A stretch of DNA of 64,000 nucleotides, from the NCBI GenBank assembly GCA_019637355.1, contig JAHBVT010000001.1:372001-436000 (forward strand). Reading direction: 5' to 3'. The notes beneath the pieces are model-generated. The model made no database searches, was not told the DNA's origin, and saw only the letters and a list, made by a program, of their open reading frames with translations. Position 1 is the first letter of the stretch; the number at the start of each line of letters is the position of its first letter. Shown here piece after piece: positions 9,632 to 59,205 of the stretch. The stretch comes from Gemmatimonadaceae bacterium. GTDB lineage: Bacteria > Gemmatimonadota > Gemmatimonadetes > Gemmatimonadales > Gemmatimonadaceae. The position numbers were made by a program, and so were the translations under genes.

Positions 9632-9737
9632 CGGGAGTCCCAGGGGGAGTTCGGCCGGAGCCACTGAATCGGAGCGGCGCTCGACTCAGGCTGACTGGAA
9701 TCTAAGGCTCGAACTGGTCCAATGCAGGACGGACAAT

Positions 9738-9787
9738 GACGGAGGACGGATGCCGGTCGGCGCCGTAGTTGGCATCCGTCATCCGTC
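9738..9787. repeat. GACGGAN heptamer inverted repeat R1
   Basis: Left arm 9738-9754 starts GACGGAGGACGGATGCC and pairs with right arm 9771-9787 over 17 bp with one mismatch, around a 16-nt loop. A further GACGGA lies at 9729-9734. The right arm overlaps the end of the patatin-ferredoxin gene and supplies its stop codon. It could act as a transcription terminator for that gene, although no T-run follows. Confidence 0.8.
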
Positions 9788-10909
9788 TTCCGTCTGCTCC
9801 TCCAGGATTGGCATCTCCATCGTCACGTGCCGCTCCCCGTCCTCGATCGCCTCCACCTGGATTGCCTCGGCGTGGCACTGGTGCACGAAGTCCCCGTCCG
9901 AGCGGCTCCATTCCGTCGGGCTGTGCAGCACCTGCGCCTTGCCGTTCTGGTCCATCGCCATCATATGCGGCGCCAGGGTCGCACAGAGCGTGCAGCCGGT
10001 GCATTTGTCCCGGTCCACGCGCACCTCGACCATCCGGCGCGGCCAGACGCCGCCGAGCAGCAACGAGGCGCCCACGCGGTCGAGCGCCTGCACTGCCGCC
10101 TCGTAGCCGAGGTCGATGATGCGCGAGACGTGGCCGAAGCTGAACCAGTTGTAGTGCCACACTGCCGGCCGCACGAGCAGCAGGGGCGGGCCGCCCCAGT
10201 TGGCCAACTGCAGTGCCTGCAGCGACTTCATCATCACCTGCGCGCTGCGCACATAGATGGCGGCGAAGCCCTTCTCGCCGATGCGCCGCGCGCGCGCGAT
10301 GTTGCTCGAGCCGACGTCCACCGCGACGACGGCGTCCATCCCGTGACTGGCGGCGAGGGCGGGTACGTTGTCGGCAATGCCCCCGTCGGCGCAGGTGCGG
10401 CCGCCGATCTTGCCCGGCGGAAAGAAGCCCGGCAGCGCACAGGAGGCGTACACCGCCTCGCGGACCGACACGTCCTCCAGGCCCGGCAGTCCCCAGAGCA
10501 CCAGCGCCGCGCGCTCGAGGTCCACCGTATTCACCAGCAGGCGCCGCGGCAGCTCGCGGAAGGTGCCCGCCGGCACGATGTCATCGATCAACGCCTGCAG
10601 CGGCCGCGCCAGGTACAGCGAGGGCGAGAGCATCCGCTTGGTCACCATTCCCACGTGGTTGATGCGGAAGAGATCGTGCTTGGTCAGCGCCTTGGCCCGC
10701 GCGACCATCTCGGCGATGGGCATCCCACCGGCGTACGCGGCGGCGATCAGCGAGCCGATGCTCGTCCCGGCGACGACCGTCGGCGAGATGCCGCGTTCCT
10801 CGAAGGCCTTGAGCACGCCGATGTGCGCGAAGCCCTTGAGGCCCCCGCCGCCGAGGACGAGGGCGAGCTTGGGGGGAAGGCTGAGGGACTGGGGGGAGTG
10901 CGCGTGCAT
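9779..10909 (-). CDS. Patatin-like phospholipase fused to a C-terminal ferredoxin-type Fe-S domain
   Basis: 376 residues. The patatin domain (about 13-215) has the oxyanion loop LGGGGLKGFAH, the nucleophile elbow GTSIGS with Ser50, and the dyad aspartate in ADGGIADN (Asp175). The last roughly 80 residues read VDRDKCTGCTLCATLAP (Cys303, 306, 309) with a fourth cysteine, Cys345, in HQCHAEAI. This is the pattern of a single-cluster ferredoxin, with the usual CP replaced by CH. I see no stop, frameshift or start between the halves, so this is one polypeptide. The start is ATG at 10909; the C-terminus (QTEDG) is encoded by a repeat. Confidence 0.88.
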   Translation of the reverse strand: MHAHSPQSLSLPPKLALVLGGGGLKGFAHIGVLKAFEERGISPTVVAGTSIGSLIAAAYAGGMPIAEMVARAKALTKHDLFRINHVGMVTKRMLSPSLYLARPLQALIDDIVPAGTFRELPRRLLVNTVDLERAALVLWGLPGLEDVSVREAVYASCALPGFFPPGKIGGRTCADGGIADNVPALAASHGMDAVVAVDVGSSNIARARRIGEKGFAAIYVRSAQVMMKSLQALQLANWGGPPLLLVRPAVWHYNWFSFGHVSRIIDLGYEAAVQALDRVGASLLLGGVWPRRMVEVRVDRDKCTGCTLCATLAPHMMAMDQNGKAQVLHSPTEWSRSDGDFVHQCHAEAIQVEAIEDGERHVTMEMPILEEQTEDG

Positions 10910-19800: not shown

Positions 19801-19914
19801 CTCGCGAGTGTCGTCATCGGCGGGCTTGTGACCAGCACGTTCCTGACGCTGTTCGTACTGCCGGTGCTGTACCGGGCGCTGGCGCGTTGGGAGGCGACTC
19901 GTAAGGACGGATGA
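16846..19914 (+). CDS. czcA: Heavy-metal efflux RND transporter (CzcA/CusA family)
   Basis: 1022 residues, GTG start overlapping the adaptor stop by one base (TAGTG). It has the 12-helix RND layout with two large periplasmic loops. The transmembrane-4 proton-relay residues of the HME subfamily are present in LGALDFGLIVDASVVMVEN (Asp394, Asp400, Glu407), with the spacing known for CzcA. MPKLDEGNILI after TM7 is also an HME hallmark. Proton-driven export of divalent or monovalent heavy metals is well supported; choosing among Zn/Co/Cd and Cu/Ag is not. The last codons (RKDG) and the stop come from a heptamer repeat. Confidence 0.93.
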
Positions 19915-19980
19915 CGGAAGACGGATGATGTATGCTTAGGACGTTGCGTGCCGTTCGCATCCGTCCTCCGTCATCCGTCC
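19905..19980. repeat. GACGGAN heptamer inverted repeat R2
   Basis: Left arm 19905-19927 (GGACGGATGACGGAAGACGG...) and right arm 19958-19980 match over 23 bp with one mismatch around a 30-nt loop. The left arm overlaps the 3' end of czcA and provides its stop. The unit is 7 bp: GACGGAT, GACGGAA, GACGGAT. It lies between two same-strand genes and could terminate the efflux operon. Confidence 0.85.
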
Positions 19981-32047: not shown

Positions 32048-32083
32048 TTCCGTCTTCAGTCTTCCGTCATCCGTCATCCGTCT
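32048..32083. repeat. GACGGAN heptamer tandem, single arm (R3)
   Basis: Reading the minus strand, the stop of the cNMP-binding gene is followed at once by GACGGATGACGGATGACGGA, then GACTGAA and GACGGAAG. Only one arm is present, so this copy cannot form the long hairpin seen at R1 and R2. Confidence 0.75.
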
Positions 32084-44707: not shown

Positions 44708-44842
44708 CGGTTCACCACAGAGGACACAGAGGACACAGAGAACTACAAAACCTAGGGGGTGCGCACCGATACGTCGGTGCGAACCCCCTAAGTACTTGCT
44801 CTTGCAGTTCTCTGTGTACTCTGTGCTCTCTGTGGTGAACCG
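44708..44842. repeat. Nested palindromic element A (CACAGAG arms, GGGGGT hairpin core)
   Basis: Outer arms 44708-44744 and 44806-44842 are 37 nt each and match at 34 positions as inverted repeats. They consist of CGGTTCAC plus 9-bp units like CACAGAGGA. The core 44755-44788 is a hairpin: GGGGGT, gc, GCACCGA, loop TACG, TCGGTGC, ga, ACCCCC, then TAAGTACTTGC. The element fills the space between two convergent genes almost exactly (3 nt from each stop). No ORF and no target-site duplication seen. Confidence 0.9.
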
Positions 44843-47407: not shown

Positions 47408-47470
47408 CGGTTCGGTAGCCTCCGGCCTCCGTCGGTTGACGGGGGTGCGGCGGGGCGGCGAGCTTCGCAC

Positions 47471-47476
47471 TATATT
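47471..47476 (+). promoter_or_regulatory. TATATT -10-like element of the outer-membrane receptor gene
   Basis: TATATTTT at 47471-47478 is a conspicuous AT island in a GC-rich gap, 80 nt before ATG 47556. A purine-rich AGAGGAAA about 6-7 nt upstream of that ATG is the ribosome binding site. No convincing -35. Confidence 0.5.
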
Positions 47477-47555
47477 TTCGTCGGCTTTACAGCGCCGGAC
47501 CGACCCCCGGGTCTGGAGGCGCACCGCTGGTTCCCACCCCACAGAGGAAACCCCA

Positions 47556-50500
47556 ATGAAGCGTTGGATCCTCCGGTTGACGTTTGCACTGGCCGCGATG
47601 GCCGCCGCTGCGTCTGCCACCATCGTCTCCGCGCAGGTGACCACGGGCCAGATCCGTGGCATCGTGACGGACGGCGAGAACCGCCCCCTCGAGGGCGCGC
47701 GCATCACCGCAGTGCACCTGCCCTCCGGCACCCAATACGTGGGTGCCACTCGGGCGGATGGACGCTTCAACATCCCCGGTATGCGCGTCGGCGGCCCCTA
47801 CAGCGTCGCGGCGACGATGATCGGCTTCGCACGCCAGAGCCGCGACGACATCGAGGTGGTCCTCGGTGCCTCGGCCGACCTGATCTTCAAGATGGACGCG
47901 GTGGCCACCCAGCTCAGCGCCGTGACCGTGACCTCGGAAGGTGGCGAGCTCAGCTCGACCCGCACCGGCGCGGCCACCAACGTGCGTCGCGAGGCACTGG
48001 AGCAGTTGCCGACGATCACGCGTCGCCTGGCGGACTTCACCCGCCTCACGCCGCAGGCCAGCGGCAACAACTTCGCCGGCCAGGACAACCGCCTCAACAA
48101 CATCACGGTTGACGGTGCGGCGTTCAATAACTCGTTCGGCCTCGGCGGCCAGCCGGGTGACCGCACGCAGGTCTCGCCGATCTCGCTCGACGCGATCGAG
48201 GCGGTGCAGGTGAACATCGCGCCCTACGACGTGCGCCAGGGCGGCTTCGTCGGCGCCGCGGTGAACACCGTCACCCGCTCCGGCACGAACGAGTTCTCGG
48301 GCTCGCTGTACTACAACGTGCGCGACCAGGACTATGTGGGCCGTACCGCCGGTCGTAGCACCTTCAACCCCGGCACCTTCAGCTTCGACCAGATCGGCTT
48401 CCGCCTCGGCGGCCCGATCATCAAGGACAAGCTCTTCTTCTTCGTCTCGTACGAGTCGGACGAGAACACCGCGCCGGGCAACACCTTCCTGCCGCGCGAG
48501 GCGGGCCAGACGGCCGCCGGCAACATCACGCGTGTGCTGCGATCCGACCTGCAGAACGTGCGCGACACGCTGATTACGCTCTTCGGCTACAACCCGGGCC
48601 AGTTCGAAGGCTATCCGGGCGCCACGCCGTCGGCGCGCCTCACCACGCGCATCGACTACGCGCTGAGCGACCGCAACAAGTTCTCCTTCCGTTACTCCTC
48701 GCTGGACTCCGAGACCGACGTGCTGGTCTCGACCTCCAGCTCCCTGGGCTTCGGCCGCACGCGCAACCAGGGGATGAGCTATACCGGTTCCAACTACACG
48801 ATTCTCGAGAACATCCGCTCGTACGCCGCGGAGTGGAACTCGCTGATCACGGACCGGATGAGCAACCAGATGATCTTCACGTACACCAAGCAGGACGAGT
48901 CGCGTGGAGCCATCAGCAACCTGTTCCCCTTCGTGGACATCCTCGACGGGGGGCAGACCTACATCTCGTTCGGTTCCGAGCCCTTCACGCCGAACAACGA
49001 GCTGCGCTACAGCACCTGGCAGCTGCAGAACAACTTCACGATCTACGGGAACCGCCACGACCTGACCTTCGGCCTCAACATCGAGGGCTATGAGTCGGAG
49101 AACGTGTTCTTCCCGGGCAAGCAGAGCGCGTATGTGTACAACTCGCTGCAAGACTTCTACGATGACGCTCGCGGATTCGTGGATGCGTGCGGAACGGGAG
49201 CTGCAGCCCAGACGTGCTCGGCCTACGCTGCATCGCCGGCCGGTGTCGGGCCGCGCCGCTTCCAGGTGCGCTACGCCAACATCGCCGGGATGGAGAAGCC
49301 GGTCCAGCCGCTGGAAGTCAACTTTATGGGCGCCTACGTGCAGGATGAGTACCGCGTCGGTCGCGGCCTCACCCTCACCGGCGGCCTGCGTGTGGACGTC
49401 GTGAGCTTCGGCAACACGGCGGAGGAGAACACACAGGTCAACTCGTATACGTTCCGGGACGAGAACGGCAACAACGTGCAGTACAGCACGGCCAAGCTGC
49501 CGGATGCCACGCCACTCTTCTCGCCGCGCCTCGGCTTCAACTGGGATATGCGCGGCAACGGCCGTTCCGTCGTGCGCGGCGGCAGCGGCATCTTCACCGG
49601 CCGCCCGGCCTACGTCTGGATCTCCAACCAGATCGGAAACAACGGCATCCTGACCGGCTTCATCCAAGCGGACGGTCCGGGCGGGTCCGAGCTGACCACT
49701 CGTCCGTTCCATCCGAACCCCGACCACTACAAGCCGGCTACGGTGACGGGTGCGCCGGCCGCGTCCTACGAACTGGCCCTCACCGACAAGAACTTCAAGT
49801 TCCCGCAGGTGTGGCGCTCCAATCTCGCGATGGACCATCGATTCGAGAACGGCTGGCTCACCACGGTCGAGTTCATCTGGGGCCGTGACGTGAACGGCAT
49901 CTATTACATCAACGCCAACCTGCCAGCGCCGGATGCTGCCTTCACGGGCCCGGGTGCCCGTCCGCGCTGGTTGTCAGACAAGTGCCCGGCCACGACGAAC
50001 GAGCGCGAAACGAACCGCATCAATTGCAACATTACCAGCGCAATCGTCCTCAAGAACCAGAACGTCGGCCAGACGTATAACGCCGCCATCTCCCTTGAGC
50101 GCGCGTACCGCAACGGCTTCTACACCAAGCTTGCCACGGCCTACGGCACCGCCACCAACACCGTGGACGCGGGATCCATCGCCTTCGGTTCGTGGAACAA
50201 CAACCAGCACACCGGCAACCCCAACCTCCCCGGCCTCGGTGACGGTGCCGGATATCAGGGCCGCCGCTCCTGGATCGTGAGCTCCTACACGCGGGATTGG
50301 TTCGGCTGGGGCAACACCACGATCTCGGCCTTCCTTGAGAACTTCCAGGTCGGCCAGACCAGCTACGTCTTCGGTGGAGACCTCAACGGTGACGGCGGCA
50401 CCTCGAACGACCTGATTTACGTGCCGCGCGACCAGTCGGAGATGAACTTCGCGCCGATCACCGGTGCGACGCCGTTCACGCCGGCTCAGCAGGCGGCGGC

Positions 50501-50951
50501 CTGGGATGCCTATATCGAACAGGACCCGCACCTCCGCACCCGTCGCGGCCAGTTCGCCCGCCGCGGTGGCCTCAAGCTGCCGCAGGTGACGCGGATGGAC
50601 CTCAGCGCCTCGCAGGACCTGAGCGCGCTGTTCGGCGGAAAGAAGAACTCGCTCCAGGTCCGTGTGGACATCCTGAACTTCACGAATATGCTCAACAGTG
50701 ACTGGGGTCTTGCCCAGTTTGCCGTGAACAACGCGCCACTGATTCCGCGTTCGTTCCAGACCACGGGAACGGTTGGCGGTGTGGCGTGCACGGTCGTCGC
50801 GCCCTGTAACGGACCGGCCGACGGTACCGGTGCCGCGATCTACACGATGCGCGTCATCAACGGCCAGTTGCAGAACCGCACCTTCCAGAAGTCGGCGAAC
50901 ACCAACGACGTCTGGCGTATGCAGCTCGGCCTCCGCTACACGTTCAACTAA
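47556..50951 (+). CDS. Large TonB-dependent-type outer-membrane receptor with N-terminal carboxypeptidase-regulatory domain
   Basis: 1131 residues. Signal peptide (about 1-26, ending IVSAQ), then a CarboxypepD_reg-like domain (about 31-108: GQIRGIVTDGENRPLEGARI). A plug region with LPTITRRLADFTRLTP and VNIAPYDVRQGGFVGAAVNT follows, then a long beta-barrel ending in YTFN, where the C-terminal aromatic-rich strand suits BAM insertion. Typical of the OmpA/Oar-like receptors abundant in Gemmatimonadota, Acidobacteriota and Myxococcota. The ligand cannot be predicted. It is followed by a strong terminator. Confidence 0.9.
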   Translation: MKRWILRLTFALAAMAAAASATIVSAQVTTGQIRGIVTDGENRPLEGARITAVHLPSGTQYVGATRADGRFNIPGMRVGGPYSVAATMIGFARQSRDDIEVVLGASADLIFKMDAVATQLSAVTVTSEGGELSSTRTGAATNVRREALEQLPTITRRLADFTRLTPQASGNNFAGQDNRLNNITVDGAAFNNSFGLGGQPGDRTQVSPISLDAIEAVQVNIAPYDVRQGGFVGAAVNTVTRSGTNEFSGSLYYNVRDQDYVGRTAGRSTFNPGTFSFDQIGFRLGGPIIKDKLFFFVSYESDENTAPGNTFLPREAGQTAAGNITRVLRSDLQNVRDTLITLFGYNPGQFEGYPGATPSARLTTRIDYALSDRNKFSFRYSSLDSETDVLVSTSSSLGFGRTRNQGMSYTGSNYTILENIRSYAAEWNSLITDRMSNQMIFTYTKQDESRGAISNLFPFVDILDGGQTYISFGSEPFTPNNELRYSTWQLQNNFTIYGNRHDLTFGLNIEGYESENVFFPGKQSAYVYNSLQDFYDDARGFVDACGTGAAAQTCSAYAASPAGVGPRRFQVRYANIAGMEKPVQPLEVNFMGAYVQDEYRVGRGLTLTGGLRVDVVSFGNTAEENTQVNSYTFRDENGNNVQYSTAKLPDATPLFSPRLGFNWDMRGNGRSVVRGGSGIFTGRPAYVWISNQIGNNGILTGFIQADGPGGSELTTRPFHPNPDHYKPATVTGAPAASYELALTDKNFKFPQVWRSNLAMDHRFENGWLTTVEFIWGRDVNGIYYINANLPAPDAAFTGPGARPRWLSDKCPATTNERETNRINCNITSAIVLKNQNVGQTYNAAISLERAYRNGFYTKLATAYGTATNTVDAGSIAFGSWNNNQHTGNPNLPGLGDGAGYQGRRSWIVSSYTRDWFGWGNTTISAFLENFQVGQTSYVFGGDLNGDGGTSNDLIYVPRDQSEMNFAPITGATPFTPAQQAAAWDAYIEQDPHLRTRRGQFARRGGLKLPQVTRMDLSASQDLSALFGGKKNSLQVRVDILNFTNMLNSDWGLAQFAVNNAPLIPRSFQTTGTVGGVACTVVAPCNGPADGTGAAIYTMRVINGQLQNRTFQKSANTNDVWRMQLGLRYTFN

Positions 50952-50970
50952 GCCCAGTTCCCGCTCGGCA

Positions 50971-51007
50971 GACCGCCCCGTCAACCGTCACGGTTGCCGG
51001 GGCGGTC
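50971..51007 (+). terminator. Intrinsic-terminator-like hairpin after the receptor gene
   Basis: GACCGCCCCG (50971-50980) and CGGGGCGGTC (50998-51007) enclose a second stem CAACCGT/ACGGTTG, so almost the whole 37 nt pairs. TCGTTT follows. Confidence 0.85.
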
Positions 51008-51020
51008 TCGTTTCCGGGGG

Positions 51021-51300
51021 GAGAGGGAACGGCAATTCACCACAGAGGGCACAGAGGGCACAGAGAACTGCGCCGGAGAGCGGTGCTGGCGGTGCGAGAA
51101 CGGCAACCGCGAATCAACGCAGAGGCGCAGAGGACGCAGAGCACTACAACTGCCACTGCAAAAGCTTTGGGGGTCCGCGCGGATGCATCCGCGCGGACCC
51201 CCAAGTACTCGCAGTTGCACTGCTCTGCGATCTCTGCGCCTCTGCGTTGAAGGCAGTTGCGGTTCTCTGTGCCCTCTGTGGTGAAAAGCCGTTCCCTCTC
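51021..51300. repeat. Nested palindromic element B, three concentric arm pairs
   Basis: Outer arms: GAGAGGGAACGGC (51021-51033) with GCCGTTCCCTCTC (51288-51300), then CACAGAGGG-type units at 51036-51068 versus 51261-51285 (the left side has one extra 9-bp unit). Middle arms 51114-51153 and 51211-51250 are 40 nt and match at 36 positions, made of CGCAGAGGN units. The core 51169-51202 is a perfect 34-nt palindrome starting GGGGGTCCGCGCGGAT, followed by AAGTACTCGC. It fills the gap between the receptor terminator and the mlaD stop. No gene lies in this gap of about 350 bp. Confidence 0.9.
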
Positions 51301-51304
51301 CCCC

Positions 51305-52189
51305 TCAGAAGATCGACAGCTTGATGTACTTCCGCGGATTCCGCTGGAAGTCCGCCGTCAACGAATCGAGCCGCGTCAGCAGCGCCCGCGTATCGCGGTA
51401 GAGCCCCGCATCGTTGAGCAGCAGGCCCGCCGAGCCCTCGCCGCCCTCGAGCTTCGCCAGCACGCCGTTGAGCTGCTCCGTCGTGGCCCGCAGGTCACCC
51501 GCCAAGCTCCCCATCGCCGTCGCGGCGCCGGCCAGCGCCTTCACGGTACTGTCGACGCTGGCGGAGTCCACCGCGCTCACCACGCGCCGCACCGCCGCCT
51601 GCGTGCGCGACAGCTCCTCGGACTGCACCGCCGCGATGGTCGTCAGCTGGGCCAAGAAGCGATTCGCGTTCTGCACCGTCGCCCGCAGCTCGCGCAGCCC
51701 GCCATCCTGCACCAGGTCCCGGTTGAGCGCCGCCGTCAGCGACTGCAGGTCGCTGCCGATGGAATCCACGCGCGCCAGCACGTCGCCGATCTGCACCGAC
51801 GGCGGGCCCGCCGGGATCGTGTCACCCTGCGAGAAGTCCTCCAGCGTCAGCGGTCCCTCGGGGTTCACGGTCACCATCATATCGCCGAACACGCCGTTGG
51901 GGACGATGCGCGCGATGGCGTTGCGCGGCACCTGGTAGCGCTTGTTGATGCGCATCGTGACGAGCAGCGTGCCCTCGCGCCGGAACGCCACGTCGGACAC
52001 ATACCCCACGGACACGCCCGAGAGCAGCACGGGCTGGCCGGGCCGTAGTCCGGCGCCCCACTCGAACACCGAGTACACCGGATAACCCGGCGCGATGCCG
52101 CCGCGGGCCAGCAACAGGGAGCCGAGCACCCCGAGCACCAACGCCAGGGTGGCCACGATTCCCACGAGGACTTCGTCGCGACGCTTCAT
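51305..52189 (-). CDS. mlaD: MCE-domain protein MlaD
   Basis: 294 residues. One N-terminal helix (about 8-28), an MCE domain (about 36-110: VYSVFEWGAGLRPGQPVLLS and SVGYVSDVAF), then long helices forming the C-terminal tunnel part. Substrate-binding subunit of ABC lipid transport between inner and outer membrane. Overlaps mlaE by one base (TAATG). The cognate ATPase MlaF is not in this cluster. Confidence 0.9.
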   Translation of the reverse strand: MKRRDEVLVGIVATLALVLGVLGSLLLARGGIAPGYPVYSVFEWGAGLRPGQPVLLSGVSVGYVSDVAFRREGTLLVTMRINKRYQVPRNAIARIVPNGVFGDMMVTVNPEGPLTLEDFSQGDTIPAGPPSVQIGDVLARVDSIGSDLQSLTAALNRDLVQDGGLRELRATVQNANRFLAQLTTIAAVQSEELSRTQAAVRRVVSAVDSASVDSTVKALAGAATAMGSLAGDLRATTEQLNGVLAKLEGGEGSAGLLLNDAGLYRDTRALLTRLDSLTADFQRNPRKYIKLSIF

Positions 52190-57259: not shown

Positions 57260-59089
57260 ATGACGGCAGCGGCCAGCGCAGGCGGTGAACGGATTGGCGA
57301 TCTCCTCCTCAAGGAGGGATTGATCACGCGCGAGCAGTTGCAGAAGGCCCTGGATGAGCAGCGGCAGCAGGGCACCCGTGTGGGCTACAACCTCGTGAAG
57401 CTCGGCTTCATCCAAGAGAACGAGCTCACGCGCACGCTGGCGCGGCAGTTCAAGATGCCGGCCGTGGACCTCTCGAAGTTCGAGGTGGACACCAAGATCA
57501 TCAAGCTGGTGCCGACGGACCTGGCCACCAAGAACCTGGTGCTGCCGCTGAAGCGCGACGGTCGCACGCTGACCGTGGCGATGGCGGATCCGACGAACCT
57601 CGGCGTCATCGAGGACCTCAAGTTCATCACCCGCTACGACATCTTCCCGGTGATAGCGGGCGAGTTCACGCTGCGCAACGTCATCGAGAAGCACTACGAG
57701 TCCAACGAGCAGCAGATGTCGGCGCTGCTGGACGAAATCGAGGGTCTCGAGGACAGCGAGGTCGAAGTCGTCGAGGAGAAGGAGGAGGAGATGTCGGCGA
57801 CGGCGCTGGCCGCCGCCGTCGACGACGCGCCGGTCGTGAAGCTGATCAACGCGATCCTCACCAACGCCGTGAAGCAGGGTGCCTCGGACATCCACTTCGA
57901 GTGTTTCGAGAAGGACCTGCGCGTGCGCTATCGCATCGACGGGCATCTCGAAGAAGTGATGAAGCCGCCGAAGAAGATGCAGCCGGCGCTGATTTCGCGG
58001 TTCAAGATTATGAGCCAGCTCAACATCGCCGAGCGCCGCGTGCCGCAGGACGGCCGCATCAAGCTCAAGCTGAGCGCCAACAAGGTCGTGGACTTCCGCG
58101 TCTCCACGCTGCCCACGCTCTTCGGCGAAAAGGTCGTGCTGCGCATCTTGGCGCAGAACAACCTGATGGACCTCGACAAGCTCGGCATCGAGCCGCAAGC
58201 CGAGCGCGACCTGATGCACGCGGTGCGGAGTCCCTACGGGATGGTGCTGGTCACGGGCCCCACGGGTTCGGGCAAGACCACCACGCTGTACTCGAGCATT
58301 ATGCTCATCAACAAGGTCGAGACGAACATTATGACCGCGGAGGACCCCGTCGAGTACAACCTCTACGGGGTCAACCAGGTGTTGGTGCGCAACGAGATCG
58401 GGATGACCTTCGCAGCCGCGCTGAAGGCGTTCCTGCGGCAAGACCCGAACATCATCATGGTCGGCGAGATCCGTGACCTCGAGACCGGCGGCATCGCCAT
58501 CAAGGCCGCACTCACCGGTCACCTGGTGCTCTCGACGCTCCACACCAACTCCACGGCCGAGACGATCACGCGTCTGCTGGATATGGGTCTCGAACCCTTC
58601 AACGTCAGCTCGGCGCTCAACCTCGTGCTTGCGCAGCGCCTGCTGCGCCGCATCTGCAGCACCTGCAAGGAGCAGTATCGGATCTCGCCCGAGGAGGCCA
58701 CGGCCGCCAAGTGGACCGAGAAGACGACGCTGCGCGACCTCCGGTTCAAGGAGGACGCCATCCACGGCCTCAAGACCCGCGCCCCGGACGACGTGAAGCC
58801 GCTGCTCGCGAACATCACGCTCGACACGCGCGTGATGGATATGCCGTTCTTCCGCGGCAAGGGCTGCGACAAGTGCAAGGGCTCCGGTTCCCGCGGCCGG
58901 CAGGGCGCCTACGAGGTGCTGAATATGACCCCGGGGCTCCGCAAGCTGATCCTCCAGAACGTCGGCGCCGCCGAGATCAAGGACTTCGCCATCGAAGAGG
59001 GGATGCTCACCCTGCGGATGGACGGCCTAGTCAAGGTGTGGAAGGGCATCACGTCGCTGGAGCAGGTGATTACGGAGACGAGCGCGTAG
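57260..59089 (+). CDS. pilB: Type IV pilus extension ATPase PilB
   Basis: 609 residues. N-terminal MshEN/GSPII_E_N domain (RIGDLLLKEGLITREQLQKA), linker rich in Glu (about 155-182), then the ATPase core. Walker A GPTGSGKTTT (about 333-342), Asp box, Walker B NIIMVGEIRD, His box STLHTNSTAET, and the zinc site CSTCKEQ...CDKCKG. Drives pilin polymerisation. The second of the two CATG sites in the window lies in its Walker B codons (58456-58459). Confidence 0.95.
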   Translation: MTAAASAGGERIGDLLLKEGLITREQLQKALDEQRQQGTRVGYNLVKLGFIQENELTRTLARQFKMPAVDLSKFEVDTKIIKLVPTDLATKNLVLPLKRDGRTLTVAMADPTNLGVIEDLKFITRYDIFPVIAGEFTLRNVIEKHYESNEQQMSALLDEIEGLEDSEVEVVEEKEEEMSATALAAAVDDAPVVKLINAILTNAVKQGASDIHFECFEKDLRVRYRIDGHLEEVMKPPKKMQPALISRFKIMSQLNIAERRVPQDGRIKLKLSANKVVDFRVSTLPTLFGEKVVLRILAQNNLMDLDKLGIEPQAERDLMHAVRSPYGMVLVTGPTGSGKTTTLYSSIMLINKVETNIMTAEDPVEYNLYGVNQVLVRNEIGMTFAAALKAFLRQDPNIIMVGEIRDLETGGIAIKAALTGHLVLSTLHTNSTAETITRLLDMGLEPFNVSSALNLVLAQRLLRRICSTCKEQYRISPEEATAAKWTEKTTLRDLRFKEDAIHGLKTRAPDDVKPLLANITLDTRVMDMPFFRGKGCDKCKGSGSRGRQGAYEVLNMTPGLRKLILQNVGAAEIKDFAIEEGMLTLRMDGLVKVWKGITSLEQVITETSA

Positions 59090-59090
59090 G

Positions 59091-59205
59091 GGACGGAGGA
59101 CGGATGAGAGAAGCTGCCTCCGTCACCCCACCCTCCGTCCTGCACGCCATCGTCTGCCGTTGCTGTCGCCCGTAGCCTCCGTCCTCCGTCCTCCGTCCTC
59201 CGTCC
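59091..59205. repeat. GACGGAN heptamer repeats flanking the pilB-pilT gap (R4)
   Basis: GGACGGAGGACGGATG at 59091-59106 directly follows the pilB stop. CCTCCGT units repeat four times at 59176-59205 in inverted orientation just before pilT. The arms are unequal and imperfect, but the unit is the same 7-mer as in R1-R3. Confidence 0.75.

Follow-up and report, generated by a model that had tools for sequence, protein, structure and literature searches.

Layered palindromes at gene ends in a member of the Gemmatimonadaceae, one copy of which encloses a gene for a GxxExxY protein

Between two convergent genes in the stretch of DNA analysed here (the window, 64,000 nucleotides of G000, a 3.15-Mb Gemmatimonadaceae genome that is 96% complete) lies a three-layer palindrome, element B, which belongs to a dispersed family of layered palindromes. 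One copy of the family encloses a gene for a GxxExxY protein, and such genes are associated with repeats of this kind both from genome to genome and at the level of the individual locus. The sites of the elements are occupied in some related species and empty in others, and at sites that are shared the arms are written in different 'dialects', one dialect having replaced another. The tie between the repeats and a nuclease gene, and the species-specific dialects, are new with respect to a preliminary description of this DNA. On balance, we are inclined to regard B as a non-autonomous member of a family whose coding form carries GxxExxY, and to infer that its members are copied, and overwrite one another, through the action of this nuclease.

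The preliminary description had taken B for a three-layered palindrome, and an inverted-repeat search confirms that it is a genuine one, with outer arms of CACAGAGGN units, middle arms of CGCAGAGGN units, and a core. The parts of B and its immediate neighbours are as follows:

47436 to 50951, forward strand: gene upstream of B, of the TonB-dependent receptor type (name read from the translation), outside B and with its stop codon 5' of B
50970 to 51008, no strand: GC-rich terminator-like hairpin immediately 3' of the TonB-receptor-type gene, outside B
51028 to 51293, no strand: element B as a whole, AACGGC-NN-TTCACC ... GGTGAA-NN-GCCGTT, defined by inverted repeats and with 27 related genome copies
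51036 to 51071, forward strand: left outer arm of B, TTCACC and then CACAGAGGN units with a period of 9, AACTGC at the end
51114 to 51153, forward strand: left middle arm of B, CGCAGAGGN units
51167 to 51204, no strand: core hairpin of B, TTGGGGGTCCGCGCGGATG/CATCCGCGCGGACCCCCAA, from the 22-copy core alignment
51211 to 51250, reverse strand: right middle arm of B, from the inverted-repeat search
51259 to 51285, reverse strand: right outer arm of B, from the sequence and its inverted repeats
51305 to 52189, reverse strand: convergent gene, MlaD-like (name read from the translation), outside B and with its stop codon just past B

B thus sits between gene ends at 50951 (TonB-receptor type) and 51305 (MlaD-like). 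Its left end has AACGGC from 51028 and TTCACC from 51036, and its right end GGTGAA to 51285 and GCCGTT to 51293. In the inverted-repeat search the outer arms (51017-51056 and 51265-51304, 40 nt) were 95% complementary, the middle pair (51114-51153 and 51211-51250) matched at 36 of 40 nt (90%), as had been described, and the two 19-nt arms of the core (51167-51185 and 51186-51204) were 100% complementary. The extra 9-nt unit that had been noticed in one outer arm is also real, the left arm being equivalent to the right arm plus one CACAGAGGN.

Pattern searches (which may miss strongly decayed copies) found 27 copies of the family in G000. The string CCACAGAGG occurs four times in the window against an expectation of 0.63, and TTCACCACAGAGG 34 times in the genome, in which its reversed control has no occurrence. 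Full copies are ~125-320 bp long and end in AACNGC-NN-TTCACC. Middle arms (CGCAGAG) stand on both sides of the core in 13 of the 27, on one side in six, and on neither in eight, so that B and another element of the window, A, are simply two ordinary forms of the family:

44711 to 44839, no strand: element A, the two-layer form, with outer arms and core but without middle arms

The modularity attributed to these palindromes is supported by the existence of copies with and without the middle arm, by the tandem middle arm of one copy (L071), and by arms that interleave instead of nesting (Y X core Y' X') in the orthologue of B in the related genome G200 and in a copy, L150, in the sister species G128. 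A further proposal, that B arose from an A-like element as similar elements inserted into one another in turn, or as slippage enlarged it with compensatory changes, now seems very improbable. The tandem arm of L071, the additional 9-nt unit in the outer arm of B and the interleaved arms of G200 and L150 are features that such growth might leave, but the three-layer form is common in G000, as the counts given above show, and it is already present at the orthologous site of B in G128 and G200, which marks it as old. On the strength of these orthologous three-layer copies, the construction of B by serial insertion of A-like units was rejected. Nor did pattern searches of G000 find any free-standing CGCAGAGG element with a core: the middle arm there always lies within an outer-arm element, with one partial exception (L072, considered below).

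The nearest pair of copies, two 120-bp elements in G128, are 94% identical, and the best pair in G000 85%, values that give no proof of ongoing movement. The flanks of the elements often form an inverted pair of their own (TAAC/TGAAC at the two ends); a direct duplication is not evident, and the empty sites are too diverged for exact alignment. A second dispersed repeat, numerous in G000 and represented in G200 and G204 as well, was also seen; it has a 7-nt unit, often arranged as inverted pairs of short arrays, and looks like another short-unit palindrome family:

9736 to 9794, 19905 to 19980, 32063 to 32082 and 59089 to 59205 of the window, and 2199 to 2259 of L084: CATCCGT / CCTCCGT repeat

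In the cores, pairing and not sequence had been thought to be conserved. The first part of this stands, 93% of the cells in an alignment of 22 cores being paired. The second does not: the sequence of the core is strongly conserved across the 22 copies, with a consensus of GGGGGTCCGCACCGA-NNNN-TCGGTGCGGACCCCC. The core of A, described as perfectly self-complementary, contains one G/A mismatch (GGGGGTG.../...AACCCCC), and the AAGTACT beside the core is not a feature of the family, as CCCC-N-AAGTACT-N-GC occurs at only four places in the genome. Copies elsewhere generally retain layered arms and paired cores, the exceptions being L071, L074, L080 and L084, in which the core is decayed or missing. 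Covariation among the 22 cores is modest: double-sided changes are seen at four of the 14 pairs and amount to 13 cells, where shuffles give 6.8, and two sub-types, TCCG/CGGA and CTCG/CGAG, account for most of them. Because the elements are palindromes in DNA, the double changes could come from one arm having been corrected to match its partner, as a rival to selection on an RNA. On the test of covariation, a pure RNA function was rejected: double-sided change is found in so few of the pairs, and DNA arm correction could yield the same pattern.

A single coding copy was found in G000 (L088, 486 bp), and it carries a GxxExxY gene, not one for a transposase. Both outer arms are preserved in it, as are the core's G and C tracts, and the loop is replaced by an ORF, between TTGGGGGC and CCCCCCAAAG, whose GTG start lies just inside the core G-tract. 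The product (P0001) scores far above the curated cut-offs for the family (TIGR04256, 136.7 bits, cut-off 35; PF13366, PDDEXK_3, 134.7 bits, cut-off 22), and a profile search revealed no other GxxExxY gene in G000. The D...E-x-K motif is intact in P0001 (RLD...ELK), and D65, E75 and K77 are invariant in an alignment of eight homologues. When the structure of a Planctomycetota homologue (L187) was modelled (pLDDT 85, pTM 0.79), the best match was to the Cas4 protein SSO0001 (4ic1_G; Foldseek E 1e-3, Z 10.2 over 94 residues), ahead of lambda exonuclease and of RecB-type and Hjc nucleases; in PADLOC, P0001 gave only weak matches, of which Cas4 came first (Cas4 profile E 0.019). From the model, GxxExxY is predicted to be a minimal PD-(D/E)XK nuclease with a Cas4/RecB-like fold, which would suit DNA-end processing or structure-specific cutting. 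It shares the predicted fold and the D...E-x-K motif with Cas4, lambda-exonuclease and RecB nucleases, but differs from Cas4 in its small size (about 120 residues), in the weakness of the profile match, and in having no invariant cysteine in the eight-homologue alignment, so that nothing points to an Fe-S cluster like that of Cas4. No PHROGs match was found for the protein, and no solved structure matched it by sequence. Such passages of the open-licence literature as were available to us name GxxExxY in passing, and give it neither a function nor an association with repeats; descriptions of these repeat strings, of PDDEXK_3 or of Gemmatimonad repeats of this kind were likewise absent from that literature (weak evidence, as open-licence papers alone were covered).

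GxxExxY is present in 61 of 200 genomes of the phylum. All 11 of the genomes that contain the exact unit pair CACAGAGGNCACAGAG have it, as do 14 of the 16 with at least 10 hits to degenerate units (Fisher p about 1e-6 for each test, the genomes not being phylogenetically independent). At the level of the locus, inverted repeats scoring at least 16 flank 16 of 37 GxxExxY genes compared with 0 of 143 shifted control windows. A GxxExxY gene flanked by inverted copies of one repeat was seen in G000, G128, G004, G195, G025 and others, and in a separate collection like units adjoin GxxExxY in Planctomycetota, Cyanobacteria, Bacteroidota, KSB1 and Ignavibacteriales.

Could GxxExxY nevertheless be mere cargo, which has landed in the palindromes or shelters in them, while the palindromes themselves are spread and homogenized by something else (a host recombinase, an unrelated transposase acting in trans, slippage or template switching)? 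Insertion sequences certainly do enter the elements: an IS110-type gene is found at the site of A in G128, and two other elements (L156 and L164) contain long inserts. In addition, two repeat-rich draft genomes have no detected GxxExxY (G174 and G049, with 43 and 38 hits), for which loss, an assembly gap or another driver are possible reasons, and 21 of the 37 GxxExxY loci are without a strong flanking inverted repeat, although many of these seem to represent a divergent subfamily. The strong enrichment of the gene in repeat-rich genomes and the arm-like repeats beside it in several phyla tell against this, however, and the one transposase family that was searched for, the Y1 tyrosine transposases (Y1_Tnp, HUH; PF01797), has no match in the 96% complete G000, although it was found in five of 14 control genomes. 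We therefore view cargo as possible, but somewhat doubtful, and continue to prefer GxxExxY as the agent of spread.

The elements of G000 and G128 are mostly found where genes end. At 97 of 118 element ends an ORF of at least 110 aa stops within 200 nt, and at 50 of these 97 the stop codon begins 9-13 nt before CACCAC. TAA accounts for 31 of the 50 stops, against seven of 40 among the long ORFs of the window (p = 3e-5), which indicates that the AAC end of the element is often part of the stop codon itself. (ORFs that are read through element arms can be annotation artefacts.) Both selection against gene disruption and target preference are possible causes of this placement. The way in which the elements abut stop codons, and the great stability of the hairpin (as RNA, B folds at -195 kcal/mol, with z = -17 relative to dinucleotide shuffles), might also suggest that they are kept for some RNA or DNA role at gene ends, as bidirectional terminators, stabilizers of mRNA 3' ends or supercoiling boundaries, such as have been proposed for REP/BIME. 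This we consider distinctly unlikely. At B, the upstream gene already has its own GC-rich hairpin (50970-51008) on its 3' side, as it does, with different stem sequences, in G128, G200 and G004; a scan of 50900-51400 for sigma-70 promoters and T-tract terminators found none; and an Rfam scan of the whole 64-kb window gave no match at the gathering score. Moreover, the sites are empty in most congeners, so that any such function would be dispensable, and a conserved RNA would not be expected to have its arm sequence changed wholesale from one species to the next.

That change of arm sequence is clear when species are compared. In G000 the arms are built of CACAGAG with a period of 9 (85 of 85 unit pairs; CACAGAGGN, 9 nt), in G128 mainly of CACGAAG with a period of 8 (CACGAAGR, 8 nt), and in a third species, G004, of CACAGAG or CACGGAG with a period of 8 (CACAGAGR, 8 nt); the copies so counted were partly picked by such unit patterns, but an independent check found CACAGAGGNCACAGAG 69 times in G000 and nowhere in G128 or G004. 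The match between the dialect and the GxxExxY gene is imperfect in G004, most of whose copies have CACAGAG while its GxxExxY gene lies in CACGGAG arms.

Thirteen of the 27 G000 sites are also occupied in G128, with homology on both flanks, and eight of the 13 are occupied in G004 too. For 300-2500 candidate sites, the chance of 14 being shared (one of them judged from a single flank) is 2e-6 or less. At the site of B, G128 and G200 have a core of the same type as G000 within outer arms of CACGAAGG; G004 has a different variant, and most other congeners have no element. At the site of A, the G128 element (L133, C1) has CACGAAGG units, a core of another class and the IS110-type insert (identified by reading of the sequence), and in 12 congeneric genomes the site is nearly empty (0-65 bp spacer). 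A further case, L072 (1976-2020; G000 C1 about 1140675-1140720), is a half-element that lies in frame within a coding gene. It reads CAACGCAGAGGCGCAGAGGGCACAGAG in G000 (peptide NGDQRRGAEGTENG); in G128, G200 and G204 CACGAAG units start there at the same nucleotide as in G000, 14 nt after GGGCG. The half-element is thus found in four congeners and two dialects, and is absent from G004 (82% identical over the stretch) and ten others. A shared start would be hard to achieve by independent insertion, and points to the replacement of sequence at an inherited site.

Independent insertion at strict hot spots, which would be compatible with either driver of spread, is in our opinion an unlikely source of the shared sites as a whole. 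The elements do favour exact gene 3' ends, and at some shared sites the interior class differs between G000 and G128, as might result from separate arrivals. Set against this are the number of sites shared, the common start of the half-element in four species, and the retention of one core class beneath different arms at B and some other sites, all of which fit better with the overwriting of inherited elements. Dialect does not simply follow phylogeny: G202, which is farther from G000 than is G128, contains 36-nt stretches that are 100% identical to the outer arm of B, so a dialect may come from outside. As a separate observation, the GxxExxY element of G128 (L151) corresponds by its flanks to two loci of G004 (L243, L258): the left flank matches the G004 locus that holds GxxExxY, and the right flank another one, which contains a CACAGAGA array. 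This is a rearrangement whose breakpoint is marked by repeat arrays.

How might a nuclease spread and rewrite such elements? To our knowledge, a nuclease alone is not a known route of transposition. In the scheme that we infer, the tandem-unit arms would be the sequence or structure recognized by the cognate GxxExxY nuclease, which would nick or resect the DNA at an arm or an extruded hairpin. Recombination would then copy an element from another locus to fill a new site, usually the exact 3' end of a gene, and the same copying, acting as conversion, would overwrite an element already resident at a site. Such overwriting would explain the finding of the same sites in different dialects among related species.

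The best reading of the analysis may be that of a REP/RAYT-like pair, comprising a palindrome and its cognate enzyme, in which a nuclease would take the place of the tyrosine transposase. As with the REP/REPIN sequences and RAYT (PMC3116915, PMC3733652), short palindromes of species-typical sequence occur in many copies at gene ends, and the gene for the enzyme, here GxxExxY and not RAYT, is flanked by inverted copies of the same repeat. REP sequences, however, are palindromes of 20-40 bp tagged with GTAG or CGTC (PMC3733652), whereas the G000 elements are of 125-320 bp, have layered arms of 8-9-nt tandem units and are without such a tag; and the G000 partner is a predicted PD-(D/E)XK nuclease instead of a Y1/HUH transposase. 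REP/RAYT is therefore the closest working analogy, and membership of that group fails on enzyme, size and tag. MITEs and other non-autonomous IS derivatives likewise have terminal inverted repeats, many copies, a coding copy with the same ends and empty sites in relatives, but here the coding copy holds a nuclease-type gene and no recognized transposase, and the arms are arrays of tandem units in dialects. Also comparable, by description alone, are the multicopy intergenic palindromic sequences of Geobacter (PMC2700814, PMC2996986), which comprise repeat families that are palindromic or have short units and whose origin is given as unknown.

The replacement of dialects at shared sites, one of them in a coding gene, looks like a genome-wide concerted change of dispersed bacterial repeats, and leads one to ask what its driver might be. 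The GxxExxY proteins form an orphan family that is widespread, and linking them to the palindromes gives a testable hypothesis for both. We put forward, tentatively and as no more than possible, the wider idea of a transposase-free selfish DNA widespread in bacteria, consisting of a minimal Cas4-like GxxExxY protein and layered palindromes, in which nuclease-triggered homologous copying would allow a new dialect to overwrite older palindromes throughout a genome. If the nuclease does drive the change of dialect, this would be a palindrome-enzyme partnership parallel to that of REP and RAYT, but evolved around an unrelated enzyme.
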